Shown here: positions 1,087-57,037 of the stretch, piece by piece
How the letters are laid out: the number at the start of each line of letters is the position of its first letter
Numbering within the stretch: the stretch's first letter is position 1
Source of the DNA: Cliona cf. orientalis
Lineage: Eukaryota > Porifera > Demospongiae > Clionaida > Clionaidae
Reading direction: 5' to 3'
DNA: 64,000 nt
NCBI GenBank assembly: GCA_963930775.1
Contig: OZ005698.1
Location: 4,346,501-4,410,500, forward strand
Notes under the pieces: model-generated
Database searches by the model: none
What the model was told of the DNA's origin: nothing
Seen by the model: the letters and a program-made list of their open reading frames with translations, nothing else
Program-made: the position numbers and the translations under genes

Positions 1087-1582
1087 TGTAGCAGCTAGCA
1101 TAGTAACAGACACATACACTCACTGACGTATTATTTGCACAGAACGACTACTGTAACCCTCACGCATGCACCGAGGGTTAATGAAAAACAGCTGGCCAGA
1201 GTTTAGACACAGTACAATGTATACGGTAGCATGATTTGCATGTAAATAGAACCTGGTGTGGGTGTGGCTTGCACGAAAGTCAAGAAACTAAGCAGTTAGT
1301 TCACTGACTATTCGCAGGCAGGCAGGCAGTAGCTTTACAGGAGTTGTAGCTGGAACTACATTTGTACTTATTTTGTATCTTGAAAGAAGTCTACTATTGT
1401 TCATTGTGTCCATCGAAAGCTGCCAGGGTGCGTGGAAGGATGGACCTATGGTGGAAAGTAGCAGTCCTGATTAAATGTCGCCAGAACTGGAGAACAAAGC
1501 GTTTTCAGCAAAATCCACACAATACATGCATTTGAAACGCCATAAAGAATCATATAACACCGTGCTTGTGCTCGCAAACGAG
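1087..1582. other. No gene seen
   Basis: Intergenic sequence without a supported gene. It includes the second copy (about 1476-1533) of the short repeat also found at about 390-445. Confidence 0.35.
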
Positions 1583-2218
1583 GTACAGTACCACTAACAG
1601 GTACGTGTAACTTAACAAACGAGTGCGAGTGACATGCGTGTAGTGTAGCACCCGCGTGCGAGTCAATTTCCGGCAACCGCGTGTACCCGGTACCCGCATT
1701 TCGAGTGCACGCACTCACGCGGGCACACGTAAGTATTCGAGACTCGACAGCAAAAAGAATCTAGCTAATTTGTGAGCTACATATTGTTTACTGCCTCTCT
1801 TCTCTCAATAAGCTTGCTAGAGCTTTCTAAAAGTCTCGTGCCTCAGCGGGTGACAGTGCTCACGATCACGTTCACAAGTACTCGAGACTCGTCATGAAAA
1901 GATACAGAAAATAGGAAGCCTGTCTATGCCTAGCGAATCTTTTACTACCTCTCTTCGCTCAGTAAACTCACCAGTGTTCATCAAAAAGTACGATAAGTGG
2001 GCGAACTGCCTGTTGTCTCGATCTTGCAACCATTATCTTATCGGTGCAATAATTGGACCACACCCTATACTTACTCGCGAGTGCATGCGGATATGTGCGA
2101 GTACTCGCGCTTGCATGTCGAGGGTGCCTTTTGCACCCGCGCAGGAACATCCAGGCCACGCGGGTCACCTCCTCGTTACTCGCACTCGTTTGTCAGTTAC
2201 CTGTGATCAGTGCTGTAT
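1583..2218. mobile_element. MITE, family D (ACAAACGAGTGCGAGTGAC ends), copy 1
   Basis: An element of about 640 bp. Its left arm contains ACAAACGAGTGCGAGTGAC and its right arm the reverse complement of it (about 2178-2200), each 25-40 bp in from an ACAGTA/TACTGT-like end. The interior is rich in CG-containing 'cgagtactcg' motifs. The same arms and interior recur at 5063-6281, where another MITE splits the copy. No protein domain is recognisable. Confidence 0.65.
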
Positions 2219-2447
2219 GTAGCAGTTAGAGAGTTAACAGACAGATAGACACACACACAGAACAACTACCGTAACCCTGCGGCACATGCACCAAGGGTTA
2301 ATTAGGGTGGCACCTGAGGCCTGCAATTAAGTTTTACAAGAGCACAAGTGCTATCATTGACTGGTGCTAGTTACATTAGTTCCAGTGAATGTGTAAGTGT
2401 TGAAAATAACAAAAGCTACCCTACTCACAAAAGTATTTTCGTTACCT

Positions 2448-3012
2448 ACAGTAGCAGTCAAAAAAACGGTGATGCTTTCGTTCCGTTCCGCCCTGTTCAG
2501 ACGCCGTTGCACCGTTCATGCCAGCCGTACCATTTCCGTTCCATATGCACACGTCCATAATTAGTAATTGGCATGGTCATTCAACCTGCAAAAAAAAGGA
2601 AGGCCAGCTCGTTGACTCACGAACTAGAATCGATAATTTCATACAGCTATGGTCTTCTAAACTATTCTGGGGCGGTTCACTACTGCCGCTGTTCGATTTT
2701 GAGCGAGTTCTGCGATCGAGGCTCGACTGGTTTGAAGTCTGCTATCGACGATCGATCAATTTCGCATTGCCAATTGACTCTGATCGCCTCCAAATGTGAT
2801 TGCTTGGATAGAGCGATGCTTGTTTTGGCTTTCTTAGGCTCTGGAGGCGTCATTTTCGTGCTAGCTGCGATTGGAATAGTCGACTGCATTTTCCGTCGTG
2901 TCAGCCTCCGCCTGTCCCGTTTCCATTCTTGTGCATGGGGAACAGCCGTTTTACTTCCGTCTCGATGGGGCGGAATGGAATGAAAACGTCACCTTTTTTT
3001 GTTCCCTACTGT
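2448..3012. mobile_element. MITE, family A, copy 2
   Basis: Starts TACAGTAGCAGTCAAAAAA and ends in the inverted form of the same sequence. Internal blocks such as 'cgttcatgccagccgtac' match copy 1 (517-1086) on the other strand, so the two copies are in opposite orientation. Non-autonomous; the frames within it look like repeat frames. Confidence 0.75.
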
Positions 3013-3377
3013 GTTCTAATTAATCAAATGGCCATGTGGTTAATCTCGTCCCTGAGGGTGGGGTCTGTGGACAAGACTACCATGCAGTACCTGGGGAAAT
3101 CACCAAAGAGCGGTTAGAGTGGTACAGCACCGCTCTTAAATGCCATTTATATTTGATGTGGTTTAATAAACCACAATGAACCTTTGATGTTCTACCACAG
3201 CACCACTCTTGGACTGTGTTCTAGTGACTTGCCTGAGTACGTTGTATACTGTATGTGTAAATCAAACATGGTAAGAGCTCGAGCTTGACAATACAATTCA
3301 GAGTTCAGCTTCAAATGCTGAAGATCATTTTGCAATCGCTGTCGGAGAGTGTATTATGACAATAAACCTGCAGCAGG
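3013..3377. other. No gene seen
   Basis: Low-information stretch. Around 3050-3085 it carries a 'gtggggtctgtggacaagact' type block. The reverse complement of a related block occurs at about 16335-16355, suggesting a dispersed repeat. Confidence 0.3.
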
Positions 3378-3900
3378 AAGCACATAAATGGTGACGTATC
3401 CGTTCCGTACCATTACACCTAAACAGAATACATTTCATGCCATTCACCGTTTCACATGCGGAAGCAATCAATTAATACATTGGGCGTGTCTAGCCGATAT
3501 GTGAAGAACTCGTTTGCTCGTGGACTAGAATTGATGCTTATACACTGCCACTGTCTTCTAAACTTTGCTGGGACACGTGCACTGCCACTGCTGCTGCCAC
3601 TCTTCAACTTTGAGCATGTTTTGTGATCGCCACTCAACTGAGCAGTTTTTGCTATCATCGATCAGTCGATTTTGGATCTCTGATCGATTCAAATCACCTC
3701 TACAACTAGCAGATCAACTGAAATAGTACTCCTTTCGGCTTCTTGGACTCCTCTGATACGTAGTTTGAGCTAGCTACGATTTACATAGTCAACTGCTCCA
3801 CCTCCCATTTCATTCCCATTCTGTTGAACGGAACAGGCATGCGTTTGCATTAAAACAGAATGGTACGGGACAGAAACGTCACTTTTTATGCATCCTATGA
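3378..3900. mobile_element. Diverged family A MITE relic
   Basis: The ends keep the 'ggtgacgtatccgttccgt' to 'acgggacagaaacgtcac' inverted pairing typical of family A, and the interior resembles copies 1 and 2 weakly. The terminal CAGTAGCAGTC is no longer readable, so this is an old copy. Confidence 0.45.
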
Positions 3901-15209: not shown

Positions 15210-15242
15210 AACACTTGTAATTATGCATTTATTTTTATGCAG

Positions 15243-15729
15243 ATTTGACAACTATTCAGAGAACATGTGTGTCAATGGCAAATTTGTCAGTTTGAATCTT
15301 TGGGATACAGCTGGCCAAGAGGATTATGACCGCTTAAGACCACTCTCCTATCCCCAGACAGATATCTTTCTTGCTTGCTTTTCTATTATTAGTCCAATCT
15401 CCTTTGAGCACATAGAGCACAAGTGGCATCCAGAGATCATTCACCACTGTCCAGGAGTACCAATCCTCCTTGTGGGAAATAAAATTGATTTGAGAGATGA
15501 TGCAGCAACATTGGAAACTCTCAAGAATCAACGGAATTCTCCTGTTACAAAGACACAAGGATTAGAAATGGCCAAAAAGATAGGAGCTGTTAAGTATCTA
15601 GAATGCTCTGCAAAGACACAAAAGGGACTGAAAGAGGTGTTTACCACTGCAGCTGAGGTAATCGTTTGTCCAGAACTCTACAAACCTGCTCCTGAAAAGA
15701 AGAGGAGGAGACTCTGCTCTGTACTATGA
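15243..15729 (+). CDS. Rac-like small GTPase, 3' terminal exon (partial gene)
   Basis: The exon encodes the Rho/Rac GTPase fold from the residue after switch I to the C-terminus, equal to about residues 37-192 of an animal Rac. Visible landmarks are FDNYS at the start, the G3 motif [20 protein letters not shown], a GNKID G4 motif (TKLD in typical Rac), the insert-helix region, ECSAK (G5), a KKRRR polybasic patch and a C-terminal CSVL CAAX box, whose final Leu predicts geranylgeranylation and membrane anchoring. It begins at a canonical acceptor (T-rich tract then ATGCAG at 15237-15242) in phase 2, so the ATG at 15223 is intronic and not a real start. AATAAA follows at 15881. The exon with the P-loop (GDGAVGKT) and switch I was not found upstream in this window. 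Either it lies beyond a long TE-filled intron or this is a truncated duplicate. The reading frame is intact. Confidence 0.85.
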
Positions 15730-26714: not shown

Positions 26715-27121
26715 TACAGTGTAGTCCACTTAATTCAAATCAGCTTAAGATGAATTTTCGTCTAATTCAAATTCTTTCAGATTCCCTACATAGAGCTAAT
26801 ACATAAATTTGAACTGGTCTTTTCGCTTAATTAGAAAAATTACAGCCAGCTTTAGCATACAAAAGTACACATATTTATACAAATACAGGAAGTAGATCAC
26901 ATGGAGATCACTACAATCCACCTAAGATATGAAACTAAGTGTTTGTTACCTAAATCACTCTAACAACAATTCTAAAGCTTCATACGTGGCTGAATGCTCC
27001 ACTAATAAGCATTGCAGGGTCTCAATATAGTGGTTTATATGGATCTCTGTAATTCAAATTTTCGTTTAATTCAAACATTTCTCATGGATTTTGAGATTCA
27101 ATTTAAGTGGACTACACTGTA
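26715..27121. mobile_element. MITE (TACAGTGTAGTCCACTTAATT)
   Basis: 407 bp with inverted ends: TACAGTGTAGTCCACTTAAT at the left, 'atttaagtggactacactgt' plus A at the right. AT-rich interior with 'ttcgtttaattcaaa' repeated in both orientations. The ends begin with TA, consistent with a TA target, but no autonomous relative was seen. Confidence 0.75.
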
Positions 27122-27644
27122 GCTATAGCTATGGTCATTAATTAAGCAAAATCTTTTGTCGCTATAAAGATCAAGAAAGGAGGAAAAATGTATAGTTTAA
27201 TATTAAAGAATTGTGTACCACATTCCCAGTATATCGGGAGCTTTGGGCCCTATGAGGCTACAGAATTGTCTGGGCAACTATAGCTAGCTTAGACTCACGT
27301 TTGTAGCTGATTACAGAAATTAGATCATACCTAGACTTAGACTACACGGCCTTGTTGCTGTAGAAACAATTCTTGTGTAGTGATGCCTTACCTTTGCTTT
27401 GTTTTCTAGCCATCTAGATGCGATCGCTCGAGCTGCATCTTTTGGTGAGTTACATAAATTTAGAGTTAGCGCGCCCAATGTTGACGATCTTTACCGCAAT
27501 GATTATGTGCATGCACTATGAGCTAGCGAACACGTGGACGACGTATCGCTACATACATACATACATACATACATAAGTACAGCGATTTTCTCGTAGTACT
27601 GATTAGTGTGGGGCTCGCTCAGGCTCGCCCCAATTATAGATTGA
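27122..27644. other. No gene seen; CATA microsatellite
   Basis: Apart from a (CATA)n run of about 26 bp at 27549-27574, nothing recognised. Confidence 0.4.
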
Positions 27645-27988
27645 TCGCAAGGACACCTCCAGTTAGAAGCAAAAAATTTACGAGCAGGTCAAAGGGTGCC
27701 TATTAAAGAGCTGAAATTAGAACTGTTCAGGAAGTTTTACCAGAGGGCAAGCGCTACACTGATCGGCACTATTTAGTGGCAGTGAATGTCAGTGATGAAA
27801 AAACAAAAATATGGTACTACTTTCACTTCTTTTTGGAAGTTTCACTCTGACATGGCAATTCTTTCCAATTAAAATTGGCGCCGCCTAATCTCCGGAAAGG
27901 CACCTTATATTAGAACCAAACAAATTGCGCAGGTCTCAAAGGGCGCCTAAATTAGGGTGGTGCCTATATTAGAACATAAACGGTATGT
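27645..27988. mobile_element. MITE, family E, copy 2
   Basis: Carries 'acctccagttagaagc', 'gagcaggtcaaagggtgcct', 'tagtggcagtgaatgtcag' and ends 'gggtggtgcctatattagaac', matching 5250-5813 throughout. Confidence 0.65.
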
Positions 27989-28082
27989 TGTAACACTGAT
28001 ATCCAATCTTTCACAAGTATTATGCTTAATGTTGCAAAAGGTTTCACTATAATATGATTGCTATGATGAGGGACTTGAGTTA

Positions 28083-28439
28083 CTACTTCTCAGTGTTGGA
28101 TGCTTCTGATGTAGTAGATACATGTATACACTTTGAAGTTGCTGGAGCAGTAGTGACGCCATTTATAAATTCATCCTCACTCTCTGATGACATATCACCA
28201 ATGTCTGAGTGGTGCCTCCCAAATATCTCTCTTGCAAGTAACTTCTCATCAGTCAATGCACATCTCTCTGATGCTGTAAGTTCACTCCGCCTGGATGGAT
28301 CATTGAATGTGCAGAACTGTTATTTTGTAGTCATAATTAATACCTTTGGAGATAAAGTTGTAAAAATCTTGCAAGCTTCACCTGAGCATCTGCTACAAGG
28401 TAGTCAAAGTCCAGGGTAGAGTCCAATACCTTATCACAC
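28083..28439 (-). CDS. Two terminal exons of an unidentified gene
   Basis: Reading on the minus strand: a good acceptor (tattactctttccag) opens an exon at 28439, which ends at a GT donor after 28344. A 53 bp intron (28291-28343) follows and a second exon runs to a TAG at 28083-28085. The exons join in frame to give about 100 residues: a hydrophobic stretch with FDYLVADAQVKLARFLQLYL, a basic/Ser-rich segment, LTDEKLLAREIFG, an acidic SSESEDEF patch and a Ser/Thr-rich tail. I do not recognise the family. It lies 1.0 kb downstream of the RAG1-related gene on the same strand, with a MITE between. It might be a second gene of the same element, the end of a host gene, or chance. A 121-codon open frame on the plus strand covers the same stretch, but the splice signals favour minus. 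Confidence 0.4.
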
Positions 28440-28572
28440 CTGGAAAGAGTAATAGGGTAGTGGTTTGCTTTACTGATGATTCCTGACTGCAACATTCATA
28501 AATCCATGATTTTTTTGTTGTGAACGAAAATATTGTTATATGAAACAAAATTAATGTGTGCAAATTACAGTA

Positions 28573-28763
28573 TACCATAAATCGCGAATATTTCATGTCT
28601 AAAACATTTCGTGCAATAATTTTTCGTGTTAAATAATTTTCGGACAAACGACCCTGTACTACATTTTTATTAATATTGCGTATGTATTTTCGCGCGTTTA
28701 ATTTTCGCACAACCCAGGCTGTCCGAAAATATTTTAACAATGAAATATTCGCGATCTACGGTA
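28573..28763. mobile_element. MITE, family N (TACCATAAATCGCGAATATTTC), copy 1
   Basis: About 190 bp: TACCATAAATCGCGAATATT at the left and inverted 'aatattcgcgatctacggta' at the right. A second copy is at 49082-49266. Confidence 0.75.
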
Positions 28764-29459
28764 TTGGACAACGCATGATGATACAGCACACCAGCCCTGC
28801 ACAGCAGGGGTCACGGGTGTTTCAGCGCAATACGCATGTGGAAACTTCGTTGCCCACGCATAATTTTTTCCTACACCTAGCAACGAGGCATGCACTTTCC
28901 TAGCAACCACTCTATGCACTTCGCACTGGTATGCTGTGAATATCGTTAAAAAAACGTGGTTATCCACAGCACAGTGAGATAGAGCAGCCATGGCTGAGTG
29001 TAATGGTGCACGGTTGACTCTTCTACGACATTCCTACATCGAGTTATGGCTCCGCGCGCACTAATCTTTTTGTGATGGGTCTGTTTGACAGGCTATGCTG
29101 GCTTTCATGAATTTTTCCTGCCAAGGTGAGTTTGTGAGTAGCCTTCTACCATGATTGAAGCTCCTTGTAAGCTTGACTTCAAGTTGGCACTTATTTTTTT
29201 AGGTGATTGTTATCTCGACTGAAAATTCGGGTACTTATGAGGTCTCCAACAACACTTTTTGTAGTCTTGTTACAATAGTAAGTCAAATATGAAACTAGGT
29301 TTGTTGGTATGAAATATGTTTCAGCCCTGAGAAGGTAGCTGTAGTGTTTGTGTCTACTTAGACATTTATACTGGCATTTGTGGGACTCACAATCAGTCCG
29401 AACAATTGATGCATGACATATGAACAGTGCATAGTAGTGTGCATGTGTGCTTAAAGTTA
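28764..29459. other. No supported gene
   Basis: Plus-strand splice-like signals (AG at 29091, GTGAG at 29125) and a 24-codon frame from the ATG at 28990 were considered but do not join into a sustained frame. Minus-strand exons linking the RAG1-related gene to 28439 were not found. Confidence 0.35.
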
Positions 29460-31583
29460 CTATGGCTCTGGCTGAGTCTTCCTCCTTTTAATTTCAGGCA
29501 CAAGTTGTTGATGCTCAGGGTCTACTCTGACATGATGCTCCCGAATGACACAGAGGAGGCGATCTACTCTGTTAGGCATGGTCCTATACGAGGTATCGAT
29601 CCCATTCAGCTCCTTGTGGATACTTTCAGCACCCTGCTCACCCATCTACACCCCACTTCTCGATCCAATCTGGTACATGAGATTCCAGCATGTGCATCTT
29701 TGGCAAAACAGTAGATTCTGGGAAGTGTTGCCGGTAGAAACGCATGAATCCTTCAATATTTGTTCCTATGCATAGTCATGTATTTACCGGCGTTAAGCAG
29801 GGTTGACTACTTACACACGTACTTACTCCATTGCAAGCACTTGAATCCACCTTCCTCTTGTCATAGATCCAGTGACAGGAGGCAAACAGTTGAAGCAGCG
29901 TTTCACACCTGTCTGCTATCTCCTCTGCCCTTGGTACCAGCTCAGGAAATCTGGAACGGCCCACCTCTACTGGAGCACGGCATAGTGTCTTGATGTTATT
30001 TGACTATAACGCCCAATAGATATCATGGTAATGCTTTCACATATAGCTATGTTTACGTTTATACCTTAAGTGACTTATGCACATGATTGCCAATGAACGT
30101 TCCTCCAAAATAGGCCTTCCTCTCAACGTTAAATGAGGACAAAGCTTTATCGAGGCTGTTGACAAAAGGTCCCTCCTCGTCTGTGAAGCCCTTTCGAACT
30201 ACAACTTCTTCCTTCCTAATGTCACTATCCTAAAACATCTGTATTATAATATTATTCAGATGGTTTTATGCTTGTGCTAATGTTATTCTTGACTCACTAA
30301 TTTTTCTACGTTTTTGCACAAAGTAGTTGCTGCTTGCCGATAGTAGTCAATCTGCTGTTGTGCCATTCCTCTGATGGTAAGGTACGAGGCCAGTTGCTCA
30401 GCAGCATCAGCTTCCTGAATCGCTGTTGCAAGCCTCATTCAATCTCTGCAAATTGTGGATGGCAGCTGAGTATCTCTGGAAAGAGTGCAGAGTATCAGGC
30501 TGACTGGCATGCTGAGCAAGCTCCAAGTCTAGTCGGTGGCATGATGACTCCAGTAAGGTAAAGAGCCGATAAAAGACTCCCAAGCTAATATGTAGGCCGG
30601 GCATTGACACCTAAAATAATACTATATTTAATGACAGGCATACCATGGTAAATTGTGACTTAAAACCAGTTCAATAGGGATTTCGAAGAAGGGTTCTTGC
30701 AGGACGTTCCTATACCTTCTTCACATCCCCACCTGCGGCTAAAAACTTCCGGTGATCCCTTGCTAGTGTGTCTAAGGTACGACGAGTAAAGCCGACAAAA
30801 GCTGGATCCAGTATCAGCTCCTGAGACTTGATGTGGCACCAGAGGCAGCAGTATCGACCTAGTGAACAAGGGAGTGATTGAGGTACAACCTAGGACTGTA
30901 TATTCATACCAGTGGCGCCAGTTAGACCATACATTCTGCAGAGGAACCCGTAGTCTCCAGAGAGGAAAATACGAAGTTGTTTGTCCCTAATTTAGCATAC
31001 ACATAATTATGCCTTTTATGCATGTACATGTATGTACATGCAATCCTCCTTCATATCTCCACTGTGCCCCATTTAGTGCTTCCATTTGGTCTTTGTACCT
31101 ATCTAGAGTCACGTGCAGGTTGGTGATGGAGTCAGGAGCTTCTACAGCGGCGAAGATGCAGGTATGTTTGGGGCTATTAGGCTTTGGGGTATTGACAATT
31201 TGGAAGTTCATTTTAAATGAACCTTCACCCTTGTTACCCCCTATCTTGATCCAAATCTCATTGGATGGGATATCACCATCATGCCATGTTAGTACATGTA
31301 GGTTGAGCCTGTAGTTTAACAATGTTATGGTGTGTGTGCACTTGTGTGCCTGCGTATGTATGACATTGCTTATTTACTTGCTGTAGGAGTCAAGAAGTTG
31401 GAAAACTTTATCTTTCAACTCTGGGATGTAAACCAATGGTGCTGCTCGGATTCCTCCCCTCCTGATTTCAAAGGGAACATCAGTGGCACTGCTTCACCCT
31501 TTAAGTTGGTGGTGACTATGCTCTGTGCACATTTGCGTAGCTTCTTCTCACTGGGAATGCTGATGTTCCATTCTGCAAGCCAT
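29460..31583 (-). other. DDE-type catalytic core of the RAG1-related pseudogene
   Basis: Candidate metal-binding residues in order: the residue in GG(N)KG at 31233-31235, which I expect to be Asp in active relatives but is AAC/Asn here; Asp in SGDYGF at 30953-30955; Glu in GAES at 29625-29627. The YCCLWC motif (about 30830-30855) directly after the second acidic block parallels the CTLC zinc pair found after the second catalytic Asp of RAG1, but I could not align the two cores residue by residue. The family resemblance to large uncharacterised transposase-like proteins of cnidarians and sponges is recollection. Frameshifts near 31450, 30715, 30405 and 29640 rule out a functional product. Confidence 0.65.
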
Positions 31584-31980
31584 CTGCAGGTACTGCAGTG
31601 ACTTAAGTCTGTTTATATAGAATGTGCAAGCTGTATACATCCTAACTGTACGAAGCTTGTTTCAAGGTATAGCCAAGTTTGCTTTCAAGGCTAAATCTTT
31701 CTCGGGTGGTATGTCCAAAGTGATTCCAGCACTCACCAAAAGTTGGTTTTGCTCACTAGCCGGCAGCCCTTTCAATTCAGCTTGAAGCTGTGCTCTGGAA
31801 TCCTTAGACATACCTGCTCGGATCTCTTCCAAGTCACTACTGCGCTTGCGTACTGTCCTACTACAGGCTTCTGCAGAGGACACTCTGGCTGCTGGTACAT
31901 GAGCAAGTGTAAGTGGCTGTAAGAATTAGTGTACATAATCATAGCGATAACAATTAATACCCTTTATGTTGAGATCTCAC

Positions 31981-32943
31981 TTGTCCTGCTGTAGGCAGTC
32001 GAATAGTCTCTCCATGCCCACTCAACATCCGTCTAACAACATTGGATGCTACCTGTTGTTCAGCTGTGGTTGGTGGTGCTGTTAGGGGCTTGGAAAGGAT
32101 GTCAGTGATGGACATGACTTCAGCTGTCCTACCCACCCCACACTTCATTGCTGTGTGCGTCTTCAGATCACTGACTCTGACCTTCTGTTTGCAGGCCAAA
32201 CAGGTGATCAAGACTCCACCTAAGACCCTCAGCAGCATTTCTGGCGGTGGAAGAACCTTTAGCGGGTGTGAGGCATAGCAGCATGGACAGCTCTCCTGGT
32301 CTTGGCATACACTAAATCATCTATTTCATGAAAGTACAGCTAAGTGTATTTACAGAATGTACCGTTTGTTAGTTTACCTCTGAATACAAGTGAGACAAAC
32401 TACTGACCCACACTGTAGTTGTAATGGCCGATCAAGCAGTTCCAAGCAAATGGGGCACTGCATGTGTGTGGATTGGAGGCCAGGGACTGTTGAGGTGAAT
32501 CGAGAAGGCTTCTCCTGCTTCTCGGGGAAAAAAACTAGGGGGTGCTAGTTTCTGTGCCTCTGTGAGAAGTGTGTGTGTACCATCCGATGATGGTCTCCCT
32601 CTCCTTTTCCTTCCTTTTGGGGGTCTGCCTCCCTTTTACCTTGTGCTGATGTTTCCACACACCATACAATCCTCCCCAACATGCACACACCATTCAGCAG
32701 GTTCCACAGCATGGAGATAGACTCTCCCTTCAGCTTCTGCTTTGCTGGACCGCGATACCACAGCATAGCAACGCTTGCAAAACTTTTGGGGATGGACATT
32801 GGCTTTGTCTGTGGAGATGTCAATGCTGAAGACTGACTTCAGAGCAGCTTCATGGTCCTTGCAGAGTCTGTTCTGCTTGACTGGCCCACCACACACCCGG
32901 CAAAGATTTGCTAGCTCCTTAATGTGCTTTACCTCATCCATCA
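31981..32943 (-). other. RAG1-like N-terminal zinc module and RING of the pseudogene
   Basis: Exon 32378-32943 starts at an ATG (32939-32941) after a CTAG acceptor and encodes CRVCGG, a 'VFSIDISTDKANVHPQKFC' block and CMVCGN. Vertebrate RAG1 has the same order: a CX2C pair, V(F)xIDV..D...IHP..FC..C, then CxxC. After a GRPP basic region comes QCPICLELLDRP...CGSVVCLTCIQ, and the next exon supplies CPCC to complete a C3HC4 RING. The following LITCLACKQKV...H...C corresponds in position to the first zinc finger behind the RAG1 RING. In RAG1 this region gives dimerisation and E3 ubiquitin-ligase activity. The TAA at 32636-32638 and a 1-nt shift near 32530 interrupt it, but sequence on both sides is still readable. 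Confidence 0.75.
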
Positions 32944-33046
32944 CTAGCCATAATATTAGAATATTCATGTTTTTTTTGTACTTGTATATTACATACAAAA
33001 AAATAAGTGCAGCTACTTTGATGTGATTTTTATACTTACTAAGCAT

Positions 33047-33586
33047 TCAGCTAAACACTGGAACTGGAGAGAAGATGAAGAAAACTTCAGGATTGCAGAT
33101 TCAAATCAAAACATCAACCACTCTGTAGTTGCCTGGCTGGAACCTTGCAGCTGAAGATGCCTGCGCATTACTGTACTATAGGCTGCGCATGATGCGCATG
33201 CCATCTGGAGTTGTCAGGGAGACTGGTTTTATAATTATGTAATGTTATTTTAGCCAATGAGAAGTTGGTTTTGCTGGAAAGTCCCTGCATGGAAACCACT
33301 GGGAATTTAATTAGCTGTCGTTGCTATGCGCGCGTAGCAACTTAAACGGATACCATAAATGTTCTAATTAATCGCTAAAATTCCGCATGAAACACCCGTG
33401 GGGTAGGGCTTATAGAGTATATAAATAACGGTCAGCCATCAGCCATTTTCTGAGTAAAGAACTCACTTGACTGTCAATCCAGCAATTTGAGCGGCCATAG
33501 TGGCCTAGCAACTCTTTTTCATTAAGTGCTACATAGCCAGCTAGGCCAACAGTTAGGTCAAAACGTTACACATGCACAATACAAAC
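33047..33586. other. No gene seen (upstream of the RAG1-related gene)
   Basis: Would contain the promoter of the minus-strand gene. No TATA box or terminal inverted repeat that could mark the end of a transposon was identified. On the plus strand a 'tataaata' occurs at about 33419 without a supported gene after it. Confidence 0.3.
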
Positions 33587-34018
33587 TACTGTATTGCCTC
33601 TAATTTAACGGACATCTCTAATTATCCGGACACCATTTCGAATTATTCGTTTACCTCTAATTACACCTGACAGTCAATGAAGTTTGAATTTTTGTTGTTT
33701 TAATTATCCAGACATCGTTGTTCTAATGCGGACAGTTCGCGCTAACGTGCTACCTATACCCATATCAGTGTATGAAGGAGGCGAATTGTTCTTTTTCCCA
33801 CCATGAACAGGGATTCGAGCTCCAGGTACCGTCTCATTTTCTCAATCTCTGCAGCTACTCGATCGCACGTCCACTTCACCGAATACGCATGCACGAAAGC
33901 GTGTTCTAATTCATCGGACACTTCCAATGCCAACTATTTTCGTGTGCTCTAATTATAGCGGACATTTGCCAAAATAATTATTTTTCTGGTGTCCGTTAAA
34001 TTAGAGGTAATAACGGTA
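33587..34018. mobile_element. MITE (TACTGTATTGCCTCTAATTTAAC)
   Basis: 432 bp with inverted ends TACTGTATTGCCTCTAATTT and 'aaattagaggtaataacggt' plus A. Internal 'cggacat' and 'ctaattat' motifs repeat through the arms. No coding potential. Confidence 0.75.
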
Positions 34019-34156
34019 TCTAAAGTGATAAGGTGGCAGATAGTTTTAACTTGGAAATCAGAAAATAACTTTCTCTTGTGGAATATCCCTGGCAGTGATA
34101 ATGCTGTCACTGTGGCTCTCGGCTAGATACACTAGCCATCAGGCGTAACTCATCAA

Positions 34157-34425
34157 TAATGCATTCCTATAGTACTTGAATATAAGTCCCAAAATCTTCT
34201 TCCTTCCGGGAAAAGAAAATCTCAGGACTTGAGCAGGAATCAGCACTTGTATACCCTTCCTTCAGCTTCCTCCCAAGGGCTTGGTGGCTCAACTGGTACA
34301 GCATCACACCAGAAATGTGAGTGTGTGGGTTGATCCCCACTCAAGTCCTAAGATTTTCTTTTTCCGGAAGGAAAAGCTTGAGACTTGTATATATATACAA
34401 GTGCTATAGGAATGCATAACTCGGA
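34157..34425. mobile_element. Inverted-repeat element enclosing a tRNA-derived SINE head
   Basis: The left arm ('tgcattcctatagtacttg', then 'ccttccgggaaaagaaaatc') pairs with the right arm ('gattttctttttccggaagg', 'caagtgctataggaatgca'). The centre holds Pol III-type boxes: A box near 34282-34296 (TGGTGGCTCAACTGG) and B box near 34328-34338 (GGTTGATCCCC). Confidence 0.6.
34277..34345 (+). repeat. tRNA-derived SINE head
   Basis: An A box and a B box 31 nt apart are a tRNA-gene promoter arrangement. Acceptor-stem pairing is not preserved, so I call a tRNA-derived SINE and not a tRNA gene. Confidence 0.55.
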
Positions 34426-35607
34426 AATATTTTACAGCTACCCGGTGAGTCTCTGTTCTAGCCCTGGCTGGATTAAACGAATTCTGTTGCTTATATACTT
34501 CGATTTTTTGAAGCGAGTGAGCATGTTTGACTGTAGATACCAGCCACCTGCACCGCATCCTTCAATTCTTCCAGGCGGAAGGACAAGTACTCATCCTGAA
34601 AAACTGAATGTGACAGTGGGAATGGTTTGGTATCGAGACTAACCAGATAGCCAGATAATCGTCAAAAAGCAAACATAGGGATGTATAGATCTAGTGGAGG
34701 TACTTTAATATCCCTAAAATATTCTGTAGTTTTTGGTAATCCTTCAATTTTTTTGCACAGTAATAAATTATAATGTGAAAATGCATGCAGAAAATGGTAA
34801 ACACTTATGTCCAGTCCAATCACCAATGTGCCAACGTCTGGAAATCTGTCTACGCGATTATGTCATATCATAGATAATATAGACCACATAAACAGGATTG
34901 GAAACTACTTACATGAGCAATAGAACGTGTACGCGCTCTTCAAACTATAGTTTGCATCCTTGGCAAGCCCCATTGCTATGATAATTTGAGCCAAAAATGG
35001 CCAAAAGCGATGACCACAGTGCACTTATCGACTGATAACAGCAAAACAAAAGTAGATTCAAGCTTGAAGAAGGCTTATTCCAGAGGAGTCCCTACTCTAA
35101 ATGTGGCCAGCAAAGTTGAAATTTTCCGAAGCCTCTCCACTCAACACTACAGTCCTACAAAGTCCAAGAAGCAAAAATGGCCGATTTTTCACTCAGAAGA
35201 CAGCACATCCATTAAGAAGTGCTTATTCCAGTGTGCTGATACAGTGCCCTTGCCACTCCTTTGTGGCTGTGGTCCTTAACTTATACAATTCGAGATAGAG
35301 TCCTACAAATCATTTTCCCACTGTTTGCTCTCACCTAAGATGGCAAGAAATGAGAGCATATTTGTTTGGCCACAACAGTGAGAGTACGGAACCTGCATAG
35401 CTTACAAGACTTGCTGGTAGTGTTGTCTTATCTCGGAGCTTTAACTCTGTTACTATTTTGATGCTGTAACTTCAATACCAATGCACGTAGAATTTGACAA
35501 AGCCATCGATCTCGACCATAACACAGTGGACAGCCATTACGTATGCAAATGTATTGCTCACATGAGCCATTTCCAATCCTGTTTAGGTAGTCTATATGTA
35601 TAGGTTA
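34426..35607. other. No gene seen
   Basis: Plus-strand open frames of 65-97 codons occur at 34986-35298, in part overlapping one another, but no domain, codon bias or splice pattern supports them. Confidence 0.35.
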
Positions 35608-38367: not shown

Positions 38368-41300
38368 TCATCTGGACTTGCTTGCAACTGTGTCTGCTTG
38401 AGCTGATGTCTGTTCCAGCCATTTGGGTGGGTTATCACTGCTGTACCGCCACAGTCTGTTCCAGTGGACTACTTTTGGCTTGGTCCTGGGTCCTAGCTGG
38501 ATACGGTAGACCAGGTCATTAAGTGGCTTCACAACTGTGTAGGATCCTTCCCAGTTTCGAGACAACTTGGGCGACACGCCTTTCTTTTTCTTTGGGTTGT
38601 ACAACCACACGGGATCACTTGTGTTGTAAGTGTTGTCACTTGACTTGGTGTCATAGTACATCTTTGACCGGTCACTCGAAAGCTTTAAGTTTGACCTCGC
38701 AAACTCATGCACTGTTTCCAGAGTCTGTTGTAGATGCTCTGCATAGGGAGTGGCAAGATCTGGCTCTTCTTGTGCTGGTCTTCCCAGTAAAAGATCAACT
38801 GGCAGCCTCATCTCTCGCCCGAGCATTAGCTTAGCTGGTGAGCATTTTGTTGTGTCGTGAATCGAGCTGCAATACGCCATCATCAGCAATGGGATAAACT
38901 CGTCCCAGTCTCTTTGATGGTCTTGAACAAATATGGATAGCTGGGCTTCAATAGTTCTGTTCATTCGCTCTACCATCCCATCAGATTGTGGGTGTAGAGG
39001 AGTTGTTCTGGTCTTAGACATGCCCAGTAGGCAACACATTTCTTTGAATAGTGCACTTTCAAAATTCCGGAATGGATTTCAAGGAGTACCCCAAGTCGAT
39101 AAATCATTACATTGACAAGAACTTTTGCAACCGTTGTTGCCTCTTGGTTTGGCAGTGCATAGGCTTCAGGCCATTTAGTGAAGTCGTCTGCTACGATCAG
39201 CAGGTACTGATTTTCACTTTCTGAGAGTGGGAGTGGGCCAAGAATGTCAAGAGCAACACGCTCCATAGGCAAGCCAACATTGTACTGCCCCATTGGTGCT
39301 CGAGGTTTATGTTATGGCCCTTTTCTGGATGCACACAGGTCACAGCTAGTGCACCATCTTCGGATGTCTTCAGAGTAGTTGCACCAGTAAAATCTCTGCT
39401 GGATTCGGCCAACAGTTTTATATTTATCCCAAGGTGTCCAGCGGTTGGTGCTTCATGGAGCTGCTCGAAGGCTTGCTTTTGGAGTGGCTTTGGGAGAACT
39501 AGTTGTAGTGTGATTCCATCTCCCGCCATGTTCTCCCAGCGTCGATAGAAAAGATCATTATTGACCCCAGTATGCTTTTGTGCATGCTCCATAAGGAGAC
39601 TCTGCAGGCCAAGGGGGCTTAGTGGCACTCTGGTTTTTCGACTCAAGGATTGGCTTGATGCCTGGATCTTCTCTCTGAGCTTGATTGAGATCACTTCCAC
39701 TCCATGGAAGAGACTCTGGTGTGCTTTCTTAGTCTAATGTGCTCACTTGCACAGATTGCACTGCTGTGTTCACTTGCATTGCTGCTTCTTTTGCCTCGAA
39801 ACGATCACAGTGTTTGCAGGAGGTTGCCTGGCATGGCCTCCTGGAAAGGGGGCATCAGCATTAGTGTGCAGGTGACCTGCCCTATGGTTGACTTGAAAGT
39901 CGTACTCTTGCAGGCGTTGTATCCAGCGGGCAATCTGGCCCTCTGGGTTCCGAAACTTCAGGAGCCATTGGAGGGCTGCATGATCAGACCTGATGGTGAA
40001 ATGATGGCCATACAAGTAAGGATGGAAGTGCTTCACCGCTTCTGCTATGGCCAACAGCTGCTTCCTGGTGACACAGTATTGCTCTTCAGTTCGATTCATG
40101 GTTCTGCTGTAGTAGTAAGCCACGACTCGCTCTTGGCTTTCCTGCACCTGTGAGAGCACTGCACCAATTGCATGCCCACTAGCATCTGTGTCTAGGGTGA
40201 ATGGTGCATCGGGTAGTGGGAAGCATAGGACTGGAGTAGTTGCCAAGCAGGACTTCAGATGTGTGAAAGCATTCCCTGCTTCTGATGACCATTCGAATGG
40301 TACTCCTTTCCCTGTGAGTTGATGCAGAGGTCTGGCAATATCTGCAAATCCTTTCACAAAACGCCGGTAGTAGGAGCATAATCCAAGCGAGCACCATAGC
40401 TCACTTAAATTGGTTGGGGTTGGCCAAGTCTCTATCGCTCTGGTCTTCTCTGGGTCAGTCGAGACTCCTGTGGACCCAATGATATGTCCGAGAAACTTCA
40501 CCTCCCTCTGCAACAACATGCATTTCTGTGAGGTCAGCTTCAGCTTAGCCGCTCTTAAGCGATGAAAAACTTGTCGTAGATTGGTAAGGTTATGGTTGAA
40601 TGTTCGCCCCGGGATAAGGATGTCATCCAGGTAGACCAGGGCTGTTTGCAATGGGATATTGGCCAGAACTCGCTCCATCAAACGCTCAAAGGTAGCTGGT
40701 GCATTGCGTAAGCCAAAGGGCATCACCTTAAACTGCCAGAGCCCTCGGCCAGTAGTAAACGCAGTTTTGTCTTTGTCAAGAGGGTCCATCTCCACCTGCC
40801 AGTATCCACTCTTTAGATCAAGAGCGGACAACCAGTTCATTCCGGCAAGGGTGTCTAAGGTGTCGTCTATCCGTGGCAGGGGGTAGGAGTCTTTCCTGGT
40901 GATGTTATTTAGTGCTCTGCAATCAACACAGAACCTCAGACCTCTGTCCTTCTTCCGGACCAGGACAATGGGACAGGCCCATGGATTCTCAGATGGCTCA
41001 ATTAGTCCTTGATTGCTCATGTCTTGGACAGCCTTGTCAGCTTCTTTTTGGGCTAGGGGGCAATTGTCGAAGGGGTTGTCTTATTGGAGCAGATTCCCCT
41101 GTATTAATTTGATGGTGGACCATATCTGTGCATCCTAGGTCAGCCTTTAGAAAACAGATCAGCATTTTCTATCAAGAGAAGCCGGAGCTCTTTTTGTTCA
41201 GCTGCTCAAAGATTCTTTGCACTCCTCTCGTACAGATCCTTGATGTGGTCTGGAAATTCTTCTGGTTTGGTGCCATTGGCAGGTGGCAAGGCATTCTCAT

Positions 41301-52049: not shown

Positions 52050-52275
52050 TGTAACGATCAGACAGTAAACAGAGCCATTGAACAATATCATGCAATCATA
52101 AACATTCATGTACAATAGTCTTGTGTTGTCTCAGTATGATTTCTATACACCTAGCCCTGATCTTTATTACTTAGCCCTACCATCTGGCACCCTATATAAA
52201 GGCTGAGCTTACTATGTATGATCAGTTCATGTTCTTGATATCATTCTATTGTTGAGAATACCAACCGATATTACA
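52050..52275 (+). repeat. 5' LTR of the intact gypsy element
   Basis: 226 bp, TGTAACGATCAG...CGATATTACA, with short inverted TGTAA/TTACA ends. TATATAAA at 52193-52200 is the likely core promoter, with transcription expected to start some 25-30 bp later. Confidence 0.9.
52193..52200 (+). promoter_or_regulatory. TATA box in the 5' LTR
   Basis: TATATAAA, also present at the same place in the 3' LTR (about 57219-57226). Confidence 0.6.
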
Positions 52276-52276
52276 C

Positions 52277-52294
52277 TGGTGTCAGGAGTGGGAT
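52277..52294 (+). promoter_or_regulatory. Primer-binding site, tRNA-Leu type
   Basis: TGGTGTCAGGAGTGGGAT lies one base after the 5' LTR. It is complementary to the CCA end and acceptor/T-stem of an animal tRNA-Leu (CAG/CAA type, whose 3' end reads ATCCCACTCCTGACACCA). The Gag ATG follows one base later, so there is practically no untranslated leader beyond the site. Confidence 0.8.
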
Positions 52295-52295
52295 C

Positions 52296-53177
52296 ATGGC
52301 TGAAGAAGAAACCATACCTCTACCTGTGCAACCTGTACCAGCCCGTAGTGAACCAGCATCTATTACAGACTCGACAAGATTCGTCAGAATGAGTTTGCGT
52401 CCACCAGCAAGATTTGCTGCAGGTGCTGACTTTAAGTTGTGGCTGACAAGATTCGAGATGTATGTGCAACAGGCAAGTATTGCCGAAACACAGAAGGTAA
52501 AGGAACTTCTTGCCCTCCTTGAAGACGAACCCTTCCGTGTTGTTTCACACAGTGGGCTATTAGAGACCGGTGACTATCCTGCCGTAACCGCATGTCTGAA
52601 GCAGCATTATGCGCCAGCTGGTAATGAGCTGGAGTGGCAGTACAAACTACAGACCAGGACCCAGAAACCTGGAGAACAGCTGTCTGATTTTGCAGCGGCT
52701 CTGCGTGTGCTGGCTGACAAGGCCTATCCCTCATGGTCTGCAGAGCAGCAAAAAGAAATCCTGAAGAGTCAGTTCATCCAAGGGATACAATCCTCCTCCG
52801 TTCAGCTTTGGTTGATGCGAGAGATGCCTGCCACGATGGATGAAGCCTTGAGCATCGCGAATAGGCAAGAGACGGTAGAGATGGCTCAGAAACGACTCCA
52901 CAAAGAAAAGCACCAAATGACTGAGACACTGGCTGTGGCTGATACAAGTCAAGAACAAGAGTCCGCAAATGCCATCCGATGCAGTAAACCATCAGAAATT
53001 GAAGAGCTAACAACTCAAGTAAGACAGCTTGCTGGAGAAGTAGCTTTACTGCGTGGAGAGCGAGGTGAAAAACAGCGTGGACCAGTATGCTGGGGGTGCA
53101 GGGAGCGTGGTCACATTCGACGTAACTGCCCGAAACAGAGGAAACAACAAGGCCGAGGCAGGCAGCCTTTAAACTAG
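52296..53177 (+). CDS. gag: Gag (capsid/nucleocapsid) of the gypsy element
   Basis: 293 residues. The N-terminal part is Pro-rich, the middle is a helical retrotransposon capsid-type region (WLTRFEMYVQQ ... FIQGIQSSSVQLWLMRE), followed by a coiled-coil-like acidic/basic stretch and a single zinc knuckle CWGCRERGHIRRNC (CX2CX4HX4C) close to a basic C-terminus. It forms the virus-like particle and packages the RNA. The ATG directly follows the primer-binding site and is the first in the transcript after it. The frame ends with CCT TTA AAC TAG, which holds the slippery site for entry into Pol. Confidence 0.92.
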   Translation: MAEEETIPLPVQPVPARSEPASITDSTRFVRMSLRPPARFAAGADFKLWLTRFEMYVQQASIAETQKVKELLALLEDEPFRVVSHSGLLETGDYPAVTACLKQHYAPAGNELEWQYKLQTRTQKPGEQLSDFAAALRVLADKAYPSWSAEQQKEILKSQFIQGIQSSSVQLWLMREMPATMDEALSIANRQETVEMAQKRLHKEKHQMTETLAVADTSQEQESANAIRCSKPSEIEELTTQVRQLAGEVALLRGERGEKQRGPVCWGCRERGHIRRNCPKQRKQQGRGRQPLN

Positions 53178-56100
53178 GACGAGCCGACGATGCGGGTCAA
53201 CCGTCGGCTGGAACTTTTAAGACCCAAGCCTCATTGTCTAAATCTACCCCAAACTCTACCCTGGCTATCGTAGGAAAGGTGGTGGGCCGCTGCACACAGA
53301 TGCTCGTCGATACCGGTTCAGCAGTAACCCTAGTTAGAGAAGATGTTTGGAGAGAAGCTACACAGCCCGTCACAGATGATTTGACTGAACCAGTCAGACC
53401 AATAGTGGCTGCCAATGGCGGAGAGATGAAACTACTAGGGAAGAAAGAACTTAGAATACAAATTGGAGAAGTAGATGTTCACTTTCCAGTCTTAATTGCC
53501 AGGGAGTTGACACAAGAATGTATCCTGGGTGCAGACTTTCTAAGGAAGCACAAGTGTGTGGTCAACATGGGAGATGGGACCCTGGTAGCAGGAGGAAAGC
53601 CAGTGATGTGTGAATCTCCTGAACTTATGTCTGTGTGTCATGTTTCTTTCTCTGCAGATGCCATAATCCCAGGCCAATGCCAGTTGCACCTACCTGTCTC
53701 GCACTCCAAGCAGTCAAAATGTTCAGGTGTTTTGGAACCTGCTGTCCACCTCATGGAGCACCACGGCCTCCTAATTGCCCGGTCTATCTGCTCCATGGAA
53801 GAGGGAAGCAGTATCATTAGGGTGCTCAATCCATCTCCAGCTCCAGTGGCCGTCTATAGCAACCAAAAAGTCGGTATTCTCCAGCCATTGACAGATGTGG
53901 ATGGAGTTTGTACCATTGAGGAGTCTGAGGATAGCAGCAAGGACAGACGTGCCCTAGAGGAAGTTGTGGAGCAGATGACATCCAAAGTCAAAGACCTATC
54001 CCATACAGAAAAAGAGAGCCTTCAGTCCCTTTTGTTCGAATTTGAAGGTGTTATATCTCGGGGAGATAGTGACCTTGGATGCACAGGAGTGGTAAAGCAT
54101 CAGATAGATACCGGAGATGCAACTCCAATCAGACAACCAGCCAGAAGGCTACCCTTCATTCAAAGAGATGAAGTGTGGAACCTCGTTGATCAGATGTTGT
54201 CCAGGGACATCATTGAGCCAGCCCAAGGCCCCTGGTCTTCACCAGTCGTACTAGTCAAGAAAAAGGATGGATCAACTCGGTTCTGTGTTGACTTCCGGAA
54301 GGTGAACCAGGTGACAAAGAAGGACGCCCAATCCTTGCCAAGGATTGATGATACACTTGATACACTGGGAGCAGCTAAATGGTTCTCAACGCTTGATCTA
54401 GCCAGTGGATATTGGCAGGTGGAGGTGGAGCAAAGCGATCGAGAAAAGACGGCCTTTTCCACCCCACAGGGATTATACCAATTCCGTGTCATGCCATTTG
54501 GGCTTTGCAATGCCCCTGGAACATTCCAACGACTAATGGAGCGTGTTCTTGCTGGCCTACACTGGACCTCGTGTCTAGTTTATCTAGACGACATCATCAT
54601 CTTCAGCCAGAGCATTGCTGACCACCTACAAAAACTACGAAAAGTGTTTGTGCGGCTCCAGAGAGCAGGTCTGAAGATCAAGCCAAGCAAGTGCTTTCTA
54701 ATGCAAAGAAGTGTTCACTACCTTGGACACGTGGTGTCCTCAGAAGGAGTAGAAACTGACCCAAAGAAAGTTGGCTGCATCCAAGAGTGGCCAACTCCCA
54801 TGGATGTCAAAGAGCTCAGGCAATTCCTGGGGCTGGCCTCCTACTACCGGAGATTCATTAAGAGCTTTGCACTCAAGGCGAGTCCATTATATCGACTTAC
54901 TGAGAAGGGAAGAAGATGGGAATGGACTAAAGAATGTGACGAGTCTTTTGCCACATTAAAGCAAACCCTAGTCTCCGCCCCAATACTAGCCTTCCTAAAC
55001 TTTGATAATGATTTCATCTTGGATACAGATGCTAGCACAGATGGTCTGGGAGCTGTTCTCTCTCAACAGTTTAAGGACGGAGAGAGGGTAATCGCTTATG
55101 CAAGCCGAACTTTGACAAAAGCAGAGCGCCAGTACTGTACCACCAGAAAAGAGATGTTGGCTCTAGTCTGGGGAATACGTCAGTTTCGTCCCTACCTCTA
55201 CGGAAGAACCTTCAGAGCAAGAACAGACCATAATTCGCTAAGATGGTTGCACAATTTCCGTGAGCCAGAGGGACAGGTGGCGAGATGGCTGGAAATCTTG
55301 TCCGAATATGATTTCCAAGTTCTCCATCGTCCAGGGTTGCAACATGGAAACGCAGATGCTCTCTCTCGCCGCCCCTGCAAGCAATGCGGTCAGACACAAG
55401 AGCAAATAGCACCAGCTGATGTTGCTACCATTCAGTACCCATTCTTGCCTCAATGGTCCAAACAGGAGATTTGCACAATGCAACAGGAAGATCCAGATCT
55501 CCAGCAAGTTGTTCAGTGGCTATGCACACACACCATCCCACCAAAATGCCCACAAGGAAGTGCATACCTCAAGACGTTGTGGCACCAGAGGAGCTACCTC
55601 ACTCTGCGTGATGGTATTTTGTATCGGCGATGGGAAGATGTCCCAGGAGGTGGAGCTCAGCCCCGACTACAGCTTATCCTCCCTCCTCAAGTGGTCCCAG
55701 AGGTTTTGCATGGACTTCACAACTCCCCTACTGGAGGACACCTGGGAATCAGCAAAACAATGGAGAAAGCTCGCACAAGATTCTATTGGCCTCGCCAAAG
55801 GAAGGATGTCGAAAATTGGTGTCGTCAGTGTGAAATGTGCAGCTCGAGAGGGTCACCGACACCCAAGCCCAGAGCACCACTCCAATTACAGCTGGCTAAG
55901 CGACCAATGGAACGTGTGGCAATGGATATACTGGGCCCCCTGCCCGAAATTGCTCGTGGTAACAAGTATATCCTAGTCATTGGAGACTACTTCACTAAAT
56001 GGAAAGAGGCACATGCCATGCCCAACATGGAAGCAGTCACAGTCGCAAGAATCCTTGTTAATGAATTTATCTGTCGGTTTGGGATCCCAGAGCAATTGCA

Positions 56101-57037
56101 CACTGATCAAGGCAGGAATTTTGAGTCGACAATCATCGAAAAAATATGTAAAATGCTGGGAATTGTCAAGACTCGCACAACCCCTTACCATCCTCAATCC
56201 GATGGAATGATAGAGAGGTTCAACCGTACGGTCCTTAACATGCTGAGCAAAGTGGTTGCTGATGATGAACACAGCTGGGACCTGCACCTCCCTACTTTGA
56301 TGCTGGCTTACCGCACCAGTCGGCATGAGACTACAGGAGCTACTCCGTTTAGTCTGGTGTACGGGCGGGAAGCAAAACTGCCCGAAGACATTTTGTTCAA
56401 TCTACCAGATCGAGAAAAAGAAACTAGCAACCACGGCTATACTGATGCTCTAAGAGAGCGCATTCAACATGCTTACCAAAGAGTGAGAAGCCACGCTGCT
56501 GTGGAGCAAACAAAACAGAAAGCCAATTATGATCAGTCTGCTAAAGCCAGAATCTATGAGAAAGGCAGCTTAGTCTGGCTTCACTGTCCAGCCATCCCCC
56601 GGGGAAAAAGTCCCAAGTTTCACCGACCCTGGCAAGGCCCATTCAAAGTCGTCAAGAAAATTGGAGATGTGGTTTACCGAATCCAGCATACACAAAACCC
56701 AAAAAGACGAGTTGTTGTACACGCCAACAGGCTCAAGAATTACAATACTCAGAGAGAAGATGACGAGTTTCAACAACAATGGGTAATACCGCCAAGTCTG
56801 ATAGAACAAACTAAATCAGCTTCCAGAGAAAGTGTTTGTTCCCCTGAAACTACTGACGGGCAAGCAGAGAGTGAGTCAGAGGCAGAGAGTGAGCCAGAGG
56901 TGGAGCAGCTACCTTCCACTCCACAGCAGGACACTAGTCCACTGCCACTGAGACGGTCCAATAGAATAAGGAGACCCCCCGACAGATACGGGACCATTGT
57001 AAGCTTCAGGGATTCTGACTCTGAGTTTGAGAACTAA
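53126..57037 (+). CDS. pol: Pol polyprotein (protease, RT, RNase H, integrase) of the gypsy element
   Basis: Open in the -1 frame from 53126 to TAA at 57035-57037, about 1287 residues after the shift site. Retroviral-type aspartic protease with LVDTGSAVTLV (catalytic Asp codon 53309). Reverse transcriptase with FCVDFRKVN, STLDLASGYWQVE, MPFGLCNAPGTFQRLM and YLDD at 54581-54592. RNase H with LDTDAST (Asp 55022) and GLGAVLSQ. Integrase with an HHCC zinc region (about 55720-55840), Asp at 55925 (DILGP), Asp at 56105 (HTDQG), Glu at 56213 (DD35E spacing) and a GPY-like WQGPFKVV. An acidic Ser/Glu-rich tail closes it. No ATG is needed because translation enters by frameshift. No lesions seen; probably functional. 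Confidence 0.95.
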   Translation: MPETEETTRPRQAAFKLGRADDAGQPSAGTFKTQASLSKSTPNSTLAIVGKVVGRCTQMLVDTGSAVTLVREDVWREATQPVTDDLTEPVRPIVAANGGEMKLLGKKELRIQIGEVDVHFPVLIARELTQECILGADFLRKHKCVVNMGDGTLVAGGKPVMCESPELMSVCHVSFSADAIIPGQCQLHLPVSHSKQSKCSGVLEPAVHLMEHHGLLIARSICSMEEGSSIIRVLNPSPAPVAVYSNQKVGILQPLTDVDGVCTIEESEDSSKDRRALEEVVEQMTSKVKDLSHTEKESLQSLLFEFEGVISRGDSDLGCTGVVKHQIDTGDATPIRQPARRLPFIQRDEVWNLVDQMLSRDIIEPAQGPWSSPVVLVKKKDGSTRFCVDFRKVNQVTKKDAQSLPRIDDTLDTLGAAKWFSTLDLASGYWQVEVEQSDREKTAFSTPQGLYQFRVMPFGLCNAPGTFQRLMERVLAGLHWTSCLVYLDDIIIFSQSIADHLQKLRKVFVRLQRAGLKIKPSKCFLMQRSVHYLGHVVSSEGVETDPKKVGCIQEWPTPMDVKELRQFLGLASYYRRFIKSFALKASPLYRLTEKGRRWEWTKECDESFATLKQTLVSAPILAFLNFDNDFILDTDASTDGLGAVLSQQFKDGERVIAYASRTLTKAERQYCTTRKEMLALVWGIRQFRPYLYGRTFRARTDHNSLRWLHNFREPEGQVARWLEILSEYDFQVLHRPGLQHGNADALSRRPCKQCGQTQEQIAPADVATIQYPFLPQWSKQEICTMQQEDPDLQQVVQWLCTHTIPPKCPQGSAYLKTLWHQRSYLTLRDGILYRRWEDVPGGGAQPRLQLILPPQVVPEVLHGLHNSPTGGHLGISKTMEKARTRFYWPRQRKDVENWCRQCEMCSSRGSPTPKPRAPLQLQLAKRPMERVAMDILGPLPEIARGNKYILVIGDYFTKWKEAHAMPNMEAVTVARILVNEFICRFGIPEQLHTDQGRNFESTIIEKICKMLGIVKTRTTPYHPQSDGMIERFNRTVLNMLSKVVADDEHSWDLHLPTLMLAYRTSRHETTGATPFSLVYGREAKLPEDILFNLPDREKETSNHGYTDALRERIQHAYQRVRSHAAVEQTKQKANYDQSAKARIYEKGSLVWLHCPAIPRGKSPKFHRPWQGPFKVVKKIGDVVYRIQHTQNPKRRVVVHANRLKNYNTQREDDEFQQQWVIPPSLIEQTKSASRESVCSPETTDGQAESESEAESEPEVEQLPSTPQQDTSPLPLRRSNRIRRPPDRYGTIVSFRDSDSEFEN
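53168..53174 (+). promoter_or_regulatory. -1 ribosomal frameshift slippery heptamer
   Basis: T TTA AAC in the Gag frame, matching the X XXY YYZ rule, with the Gag stop TAG as the very next codon. Pol is in the -1 frame relative to Gag and open from 53126, so a -1 slip here gives a continuous Gag-Pol of about 1580 residues. Confidence 0.88.
53182..53225 (+). promoter_or_regulatory. Frameshift-stimulating hairpin, probable H-type pseudoknot
   Basis: AGCCGACG (53182-53189) pairs perfectly with CGTCGGCT (53202-53209), starting 7 nt after the slippery site. Loop bases GGGTC (53194-53198) can pair with GACCC at 53221-53225, making an H-type pseudoknot with an 11 nt crossing loop. Spacing and architecture are those of known -1 stimulators. 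The pseudoknot is inference; the 8 bp stem is directly visible. Confidence 0.75.

Follow-up and report, generated by a model that had tools for sequence, protein, structure and literature searches.

A decayed Chapaev-type transposon from a probable sponge, with a RAG1-like N-terminal part and a core of predicted RAG1 fold in its relatives

Chapaev transposons are recognised by a target-site duplication of 3-4 bp, CAC..GTG ends, a DDE triad and C(2)C, LH and H(4)H motifs (PMC4079192), and a 2025 paper gives C(2)C and H(3-4)H as common to Chapaev, Transib and RAG1 (PMC12730594). The Chapa domain, named after the lancelet and sea anemone Chapaevs, was equated by Kapitonov and Koonin (2015) with a truncated RAG1 N-terminal part, an equation that we take from them, and the same source places a RING after Chapa in two Chapaev subgroups, considers the fusion with the core ancient, gives the Transib/TransibSU duplication as 5 bp and presents canonical Transib without Chapa or RING (PMC4411706). 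The N-RAG-TP element of the sea slug Aplysia is described in a review as wholly RAG1 N-terminal-like sequence (PMC8355894). Here we describe an element of about 4.6 kb in a 64,000-nucleotide stretch of contig OZ005698.1 (the whole stretch is called the window below, and positions refer to it), which is very probably a decayed, once autonomous cut-and-paste DNA transposon of the Chapaev type (CMC clade). The Chapaev hallmarks were all found in it except the likely first Asp, which is an Asn, and its gene has a Chapa domain followed by a RING, the trait of the two Chapaev subgroups.

The transposon lies at 28812-33400 (4589 bp) and extends beyond the 29460..33046 given by an earlier note on this DNA, which had proposed a search for terminal inverted repeats as a check. 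Inverted repeats around the gene were sought by eye first and by script second. Apart from the 13-bp pair that bounds the element, CACGGGTGTTTCA, no 13-mer of flank 27000-29460 has an exact inverted match in flank 33046-35500. Among 2000 flank pairs simulated with a first-order Markov model, a 13-bp pair arose in 201, a pair with a 4-bp duplication in 2, and a pair that also had CAC ends in none (0/2000), in a test made after the fact since the pair had already been spotted by eye. The 5'-CAC and GTG-3' ends are present both in the window element and in its copies. The ends are not the only sites of inverted repeats. An exact pair of 14 nt has both of its arms (29187-29200 and 32997-33010) within the element, and arms of 25 nt with 80% agreement occur at 29424-29448 and 33568-33592. 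Two inverted repeats also stand close outside: one at 28572-28764, just beyond the left end, with 38-nt arms that are 84% complementary and the look of a small miniature inverted-repeat transposable element, and another at 33592-34012, about 190 bp beyond the right end, with 23-nt arms that are 96% complementary and resembling a small non-autonomous element.

The window stretch was read on both strands in six frames. On the minus strand, the transposase gene opens with an ATG at 32941 and closes with a stop that follows 29463, leaving 651 bp and 459 bp of the element outside it. The open pieces can be joined by removing ten GT-AG introns of 51-76 nt, with the choice made by eye where several GT-AG pairs fit one junction, and the 943 codons carry seven coding lesions (two in-frame stops and five frame changes). 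The window copy is unable to make the transposase. The earlier note had counted about eleven introns of 51-96 bp and about ten lesions; its picture of an intron-rich and broken gene holds, with both counts lowered.

Pfam matches in the gene follow the expected order, RAG1_imp_bd (PF12560), RING (PF15227) and DUF1280 (PF06918), the first with an E value of 5.1e-13 and 49.7 bits against a cut-off of 23.3. A family profile compared with PDB sequences matched RAG1 residues 182-379 (E 1.1e-15), and at the level of sequence the N-terminal part of the window transposase is thus supported as akin to RAG1. The zinc module, GRP basic stretch, intron-split RING and second finger that had been noted earlier were all recovered, and the PF12560 and RAG1 matches run counter to the outcome named beforehand as refuting, a similarity to RAG1 that goes no further than a generic RING. 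The RING His of the C3HC4 pattern is replaced in the six sponge-type rows of the alignment that have a RING (window copy, P0001, P0004, P0010, P0013 and P0017) and retained in the three acorn-worm rows, and ligase activity of the sponge forms is therefore doubtful.

For the long core, where the earlier note had proposed candidate DDE residues, DUF1280 matches the first part; the likely second Asp (in GDY) and the likely Glu (in GEQGAE) are kept and the likely first Asp is an Asn, so that the candidate triad of the window copy reads N-D-E. The candidate triad of the relatives comprises the Asp residues of GGD and GDY and the Glu of GEQGxE. Across 37 aligned relatives the GGD Asp does not vary, it is conserved to at least 90% in an alignment of 56 rows, and in a sponge model it falls within strand 337-347 of the Ephydatia protein P0010, the first of the strands in the RNase H-like part. 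Another Asp (EAxD, P0010 379) is invariant in both alignments and as well conserved as the GGD Asp, so that the likely first catalytic residue was chosen by motif and by strand order in the model.

Since a link between the core and RAG1 failed by sequence, their kinship is argued from the predicted folds of relatives. All Foldseek matches at E<=0.001 were to RAG1, BbRAGL or HzTransib (40/40 for the first model and 36/36 for the second). VIA Z to RAG1 was 23.8 for the first model (456 residues, 3.5 A) and 26.5 for the second (441 residues, 4.0 A), with 10.4 and 13.0, respectively, to the P element; core identity to RAG1 in the structural alignments was 12-16%. The models support a RAG1/Transib fold for the family core, and the RAG1 kinship proposed in the earlier note is upheld for the N-terminus by sequence and for the core by the predicted fold of relatives.

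The same genome (216.8 Mb, 149 contigs) was searched for copies. The left-end search gave 40 scored matches of 69 candidates, including the window element and a contig-13 copy (in two pieces), all others being 81-89% identical, and the right-end search gave 13 matches, again including these two. Twenty copy regions, hand-picked among the left- and right-end matches, were examined: 18 have both repeats at their ends with at most two mismatches, and 14 of these 18 have an exact 4-bp duplication. Most copies are about 1.4 kb long without the gene (in two that were checked, the longest run free of stops spans 82 and 88 codons), and 15 short copies, a comparison that leaves out L062, L064, L065, L072 and L077, are pairwise 80.5-99.9% identical (median 95.3%). 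Copies L063-L081 form a gene-less, non-autonomous family of about 1.4 kb that shares the ends of the element, and more of them were found than of full-size copies.

The closest copy (L062, on contig 13) is 96-97% identical to the window element, has the duplication TGCT and has both a gap at element positions 719-3454 and an insertion of 1041 bp. This insertion, at 801-1841, is flanked by the 9-bp repeat AAGTTTTCC and is perhaps another mobile element. In L062 the N-terminal frame is uninterrupted between the start of the zinc domain and the end of the first RING half; the first two lesions of the window copy are therefore either peculiar to that copy or sequencing errors. Between window 32941-32380 and L062, 12 of 13 substitutions are transitions, the pattern expected from decay at methylated sites, which is a candidate cause. 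A second, distant full-size subfamily is present at two loci (4565 and 4557 bp, 95.8% identical to each other), with an identical 13-bp repeat at both ends and the duplications GGTT and ACTG, as read from the flanks. A duplication within the 3-4 bp of Chapaev is thus found as GGGT in the window, in the 14 copies above and at 2/2 loci of the second subfamily. At least 18 PF12560 matches, 13 of them without an internal stop, and at least 20 DUF1280 matches occur in this genome, in line with the suggestion in the earlier note of intact relatives.

Elsewhere, the joined window protein finds nine proteins, of which the best five are from the sponge Ephydatia muelleri (33-36% identity). A profile of four relatives reached at least 71 proteins (7996 candidates scored), many from Ephydatia and others from the acorn worm Ptychodera flava, amphioxus (Branchiostoma) and sea urchins. 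Three Ptychodera proteins combine PF12560, RING and DUF1280; PF12560 is weaker in the two full-length Ephydatia proteins scanned (22.6 bits against the cut-off of 23.3). A protein search with relatives, mostly bearing the N-terminus, gave six matches, three Ptychodera elements and three unrelated RING proteins, and did not reach RAG1. In a tree of 21 core sequences, from which Ephydatia P0041 was excluded as lacking the anchor motif, the window copy, P0059 and Ephydatia are grouped apart from the deuterostome elements with a support of 91/99, below the tool's own mark of 95/80 (89/83 inside the group). This position is compatible with a sponge host and long residence, and also with horizontal transfer. 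Together with Ephydatia as the source of the nearest named kin, it gives indirect support to the sponge-grade genome surmised in the earlier note.

A true RAG-like transposon (RAGL/ProtoRAG/TransibSU) with a RAG1L-RAG2L pair, or a plain Transib, could be proposed from the RAG1 match of the N-terminus and from the core fold that the relatives share with RAG1, BbRAGL and HzTransib. However, the duplication is 4 bp in the window, the copies and the second subfamily, against 5 bp for Transib/TransibSU; no RAG1L with a convergent RAG2L was found within the element, and no RAG2-like gene fits there because so little lies outside the transposase gene. The RAG1-core family is moreover absent among the Pfam matches of the window copy and the ten relatives scanned, the core has no significant match among PDB sequences, and canonical Transib is without Chapa and RING, all of which makes this proposal very unlikely. 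The duplication length and the lack of a RAG2 partner inside the element likewise set it apart from vertebrate RAG1, to which the core of the modelled relatives has only the low identity given above. Membership in the same family as N-RAG-TP, the label suggested in the earlier note, appeals to the RAG1 N-terminus-like stretch that both carry in a mobile element, and we consider it unlikely, given the exclusively N-terminal-like content reported for N-RAG-TP; the element is best filed as a Chapaev (CMC), and this separation depends on the description in the review (PMC8355894). N-RAG-TP could itself be a Chapaev, and identity with it would therefore be compatible with this filing. That the locus is instead a domesticated host gene, or a working gene whose lesions are sequencing errors, finds some ground in the small number of lesions and in the frame of the contig-13 copy, open across the first two of them, yet is hardly credible beside the transposon ends with their duplication, the many mobile relatives, the two stops and the Asn at an otherwise conserved Asp.

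Against the reading as a decayed Chapaev with a RAG1-type core stand several observations of our own. Assembly errors could account for some of the frame changes, those with short base runs close by. Membership in Chapaev is based on the hallmarks and not on a tree with Repbase type transposases. Profiles of 56 and of 15 relatives reached RAG1 among PDB sequences through the N-terminus only; for the core they gave no significant match, with one sub-threshold stretch around GL..C..C. The modelled proteins are the relatives P0037 and P0010, 31% and 39% identical to the window copy, and P0010 is without the zinc domain. Among the copies with both repeats, L066, L070, L072 and L081 (4/18) have no exact duplication; L065 shows an internal repeat pair only, its right end not being in place, and L077 has no complete pair, the examined stretch beginning inside the copy with the left end outside it.

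As a Chapaev of the Chapa and RING kind (CMC/CMCT), the element agrees with described members in its Chapa zinc domain, RING, DDE-like core, ends, duplication and C(2)C, LH and H(4)H motifs, and differs by its probable sponge host, the lack of the RING His and the dead state of this copy. It is a further member of a known Chapaev architecture, since Kapitonov and Koonin (2015) describe the Chapa-RING-core layout. Our contribution consists of the whole anatomy with ends, the many copies in one genome and the fold evidence for a RAG1-like family core. No publication title on a sponge Chapaev was found, in a search that left Repbase and most subscription journals outside its reach, and prior publication is possible.

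In the reading preferred here, the single gene of the element, interrupted by introns, encodes a transposase in which the Chapa zinc domain is followed by the GRP stretch, the RING, the second finger and a DDE core of predicted RAG1/Transib fold. By analogy with RAG1 and Transib, a dimer of it would pair two CAC ends, the D-D-E site would cut the paired ends, and these would be joined to staggered positions 4 bp apart in the target DNA, filling-in of which would produce the duplication, while the RING part may help dimerisation and perhaps act as a ubiquitin ligase. A related enzyme could nevertheless mobilise the window element through its ends, and the short gene-less copies presumably spread through such an enzyme acting on their ends.

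Table 1. Features of the Chapaev-type element, with window positions
Feature	Position	Strand	Basis or remark
Left target-site duplication GGGT	28808..28811	.	flank reading and script
Left terminal inverted repeat CACGGGTGTTTCA	28812..28824	+	side of the gene's 3' end; other copies share the ends
Disrupted transposase gene	29463..32941	-	18 open pieces, 943 codons, 10 GT-AG introns
Likely catalytic Glu (GEQGAE)	29625..29627	-	translation and alignment
H(4)H motif	29677..29694	-	translation; motif named in PMC4079192
LH motif	30590..30595	-	translation; motif named in PMC4079192
C(2)C motif	30836..30847	-	translation; motif named in PMC4079192
Likely second catalytic Asp (GDY)	30953..30955	-	translation and alignment
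DUF1280 match, first part of DDE-like core	31071..31271	-	PF06918, E 4.5e-11
Likely site of the first catalytic Asp (GGD of the relatives), occupied by Asn in window copy	31233..31235	-	alignments
In-frame TGA stop	31662..31664	-	translation
Second finger C..C..H..C	32140..32202	-	aligned with RAG1 in family profile
RING, second half	32278..32310	-	translation and alignment
Intron splitting the RING, 66 nt	32312..32377	-	GT-AG fit
RING, first half	32380..32457	-	PF15227, E 7.5e-9
Five frame changes between pieces	32528/32526, 31457/31451, 30713/30711, 30431/30429, 29650/29645	-	
GRP basic stretch	32591..32635	-	read from translation
In-frame TAA stop	32636..32638	-	translation; contig-13 copy open at the same site
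RAG1-type N-terminal zinc (Chapa) domain	32651..32842	-	best stretch of PF12560 match; RAG1 chain 21wb_A match
Right terminal inverted repeat, TGAAACACCCGTG on the plus strand	33388..33400	-	script
Right target-site duplication GGGT	33401..33404	.	flank reading and script

Other mobile sequences share the window with this element. A gypsy-like LTR (long terminal repeat) retrotransposon at 52239-57034 on the plus strand has a PNMA-like frame followed by an open frame of 1303 codons (protease, reverse transcriptase, RNase H and integrase); another gypsy-like LTR retrotransposon gene lies in pieces at 38371-41080 on the minus strand. An exon of a Ras-family GTPase at 15211-15726 on the plus strand (PF00071, E 8e-37) probably belongs to a host gene.

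Two models have been put forward for the front half of RAG1: the fusion of an N-terminal transposon with Transib (PMC8355894), and descent from a Chapaev-like ancestor that already bore the N-terminal part (PMC4411706). The occurrence of the whole layout in elements of a probable sponge and of the acorn worm, whose kin have a core with a predicted RAG1 fold, favours descent. It is conceivable, and we would put it forward only with considerable doubt, that sponge Chapaevs keep the complete RAG1 plan as the state ancestral to the RAG, Transib and Chapaev recombinases of all animals, in which case RAG1 would owe its N-terminus to descent and the model of an N-terminal transposon inserted into Transib would be wrong. 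The question of RAG1 origin becomes more testable with an element in a probable sponge whose front is fully RAG1-like and whose family has a core of RAG1 fold, and the family found in the window supplies sequences from an early-branching animal with which to test it, together with undamaged-looking relatives for biochemistry.
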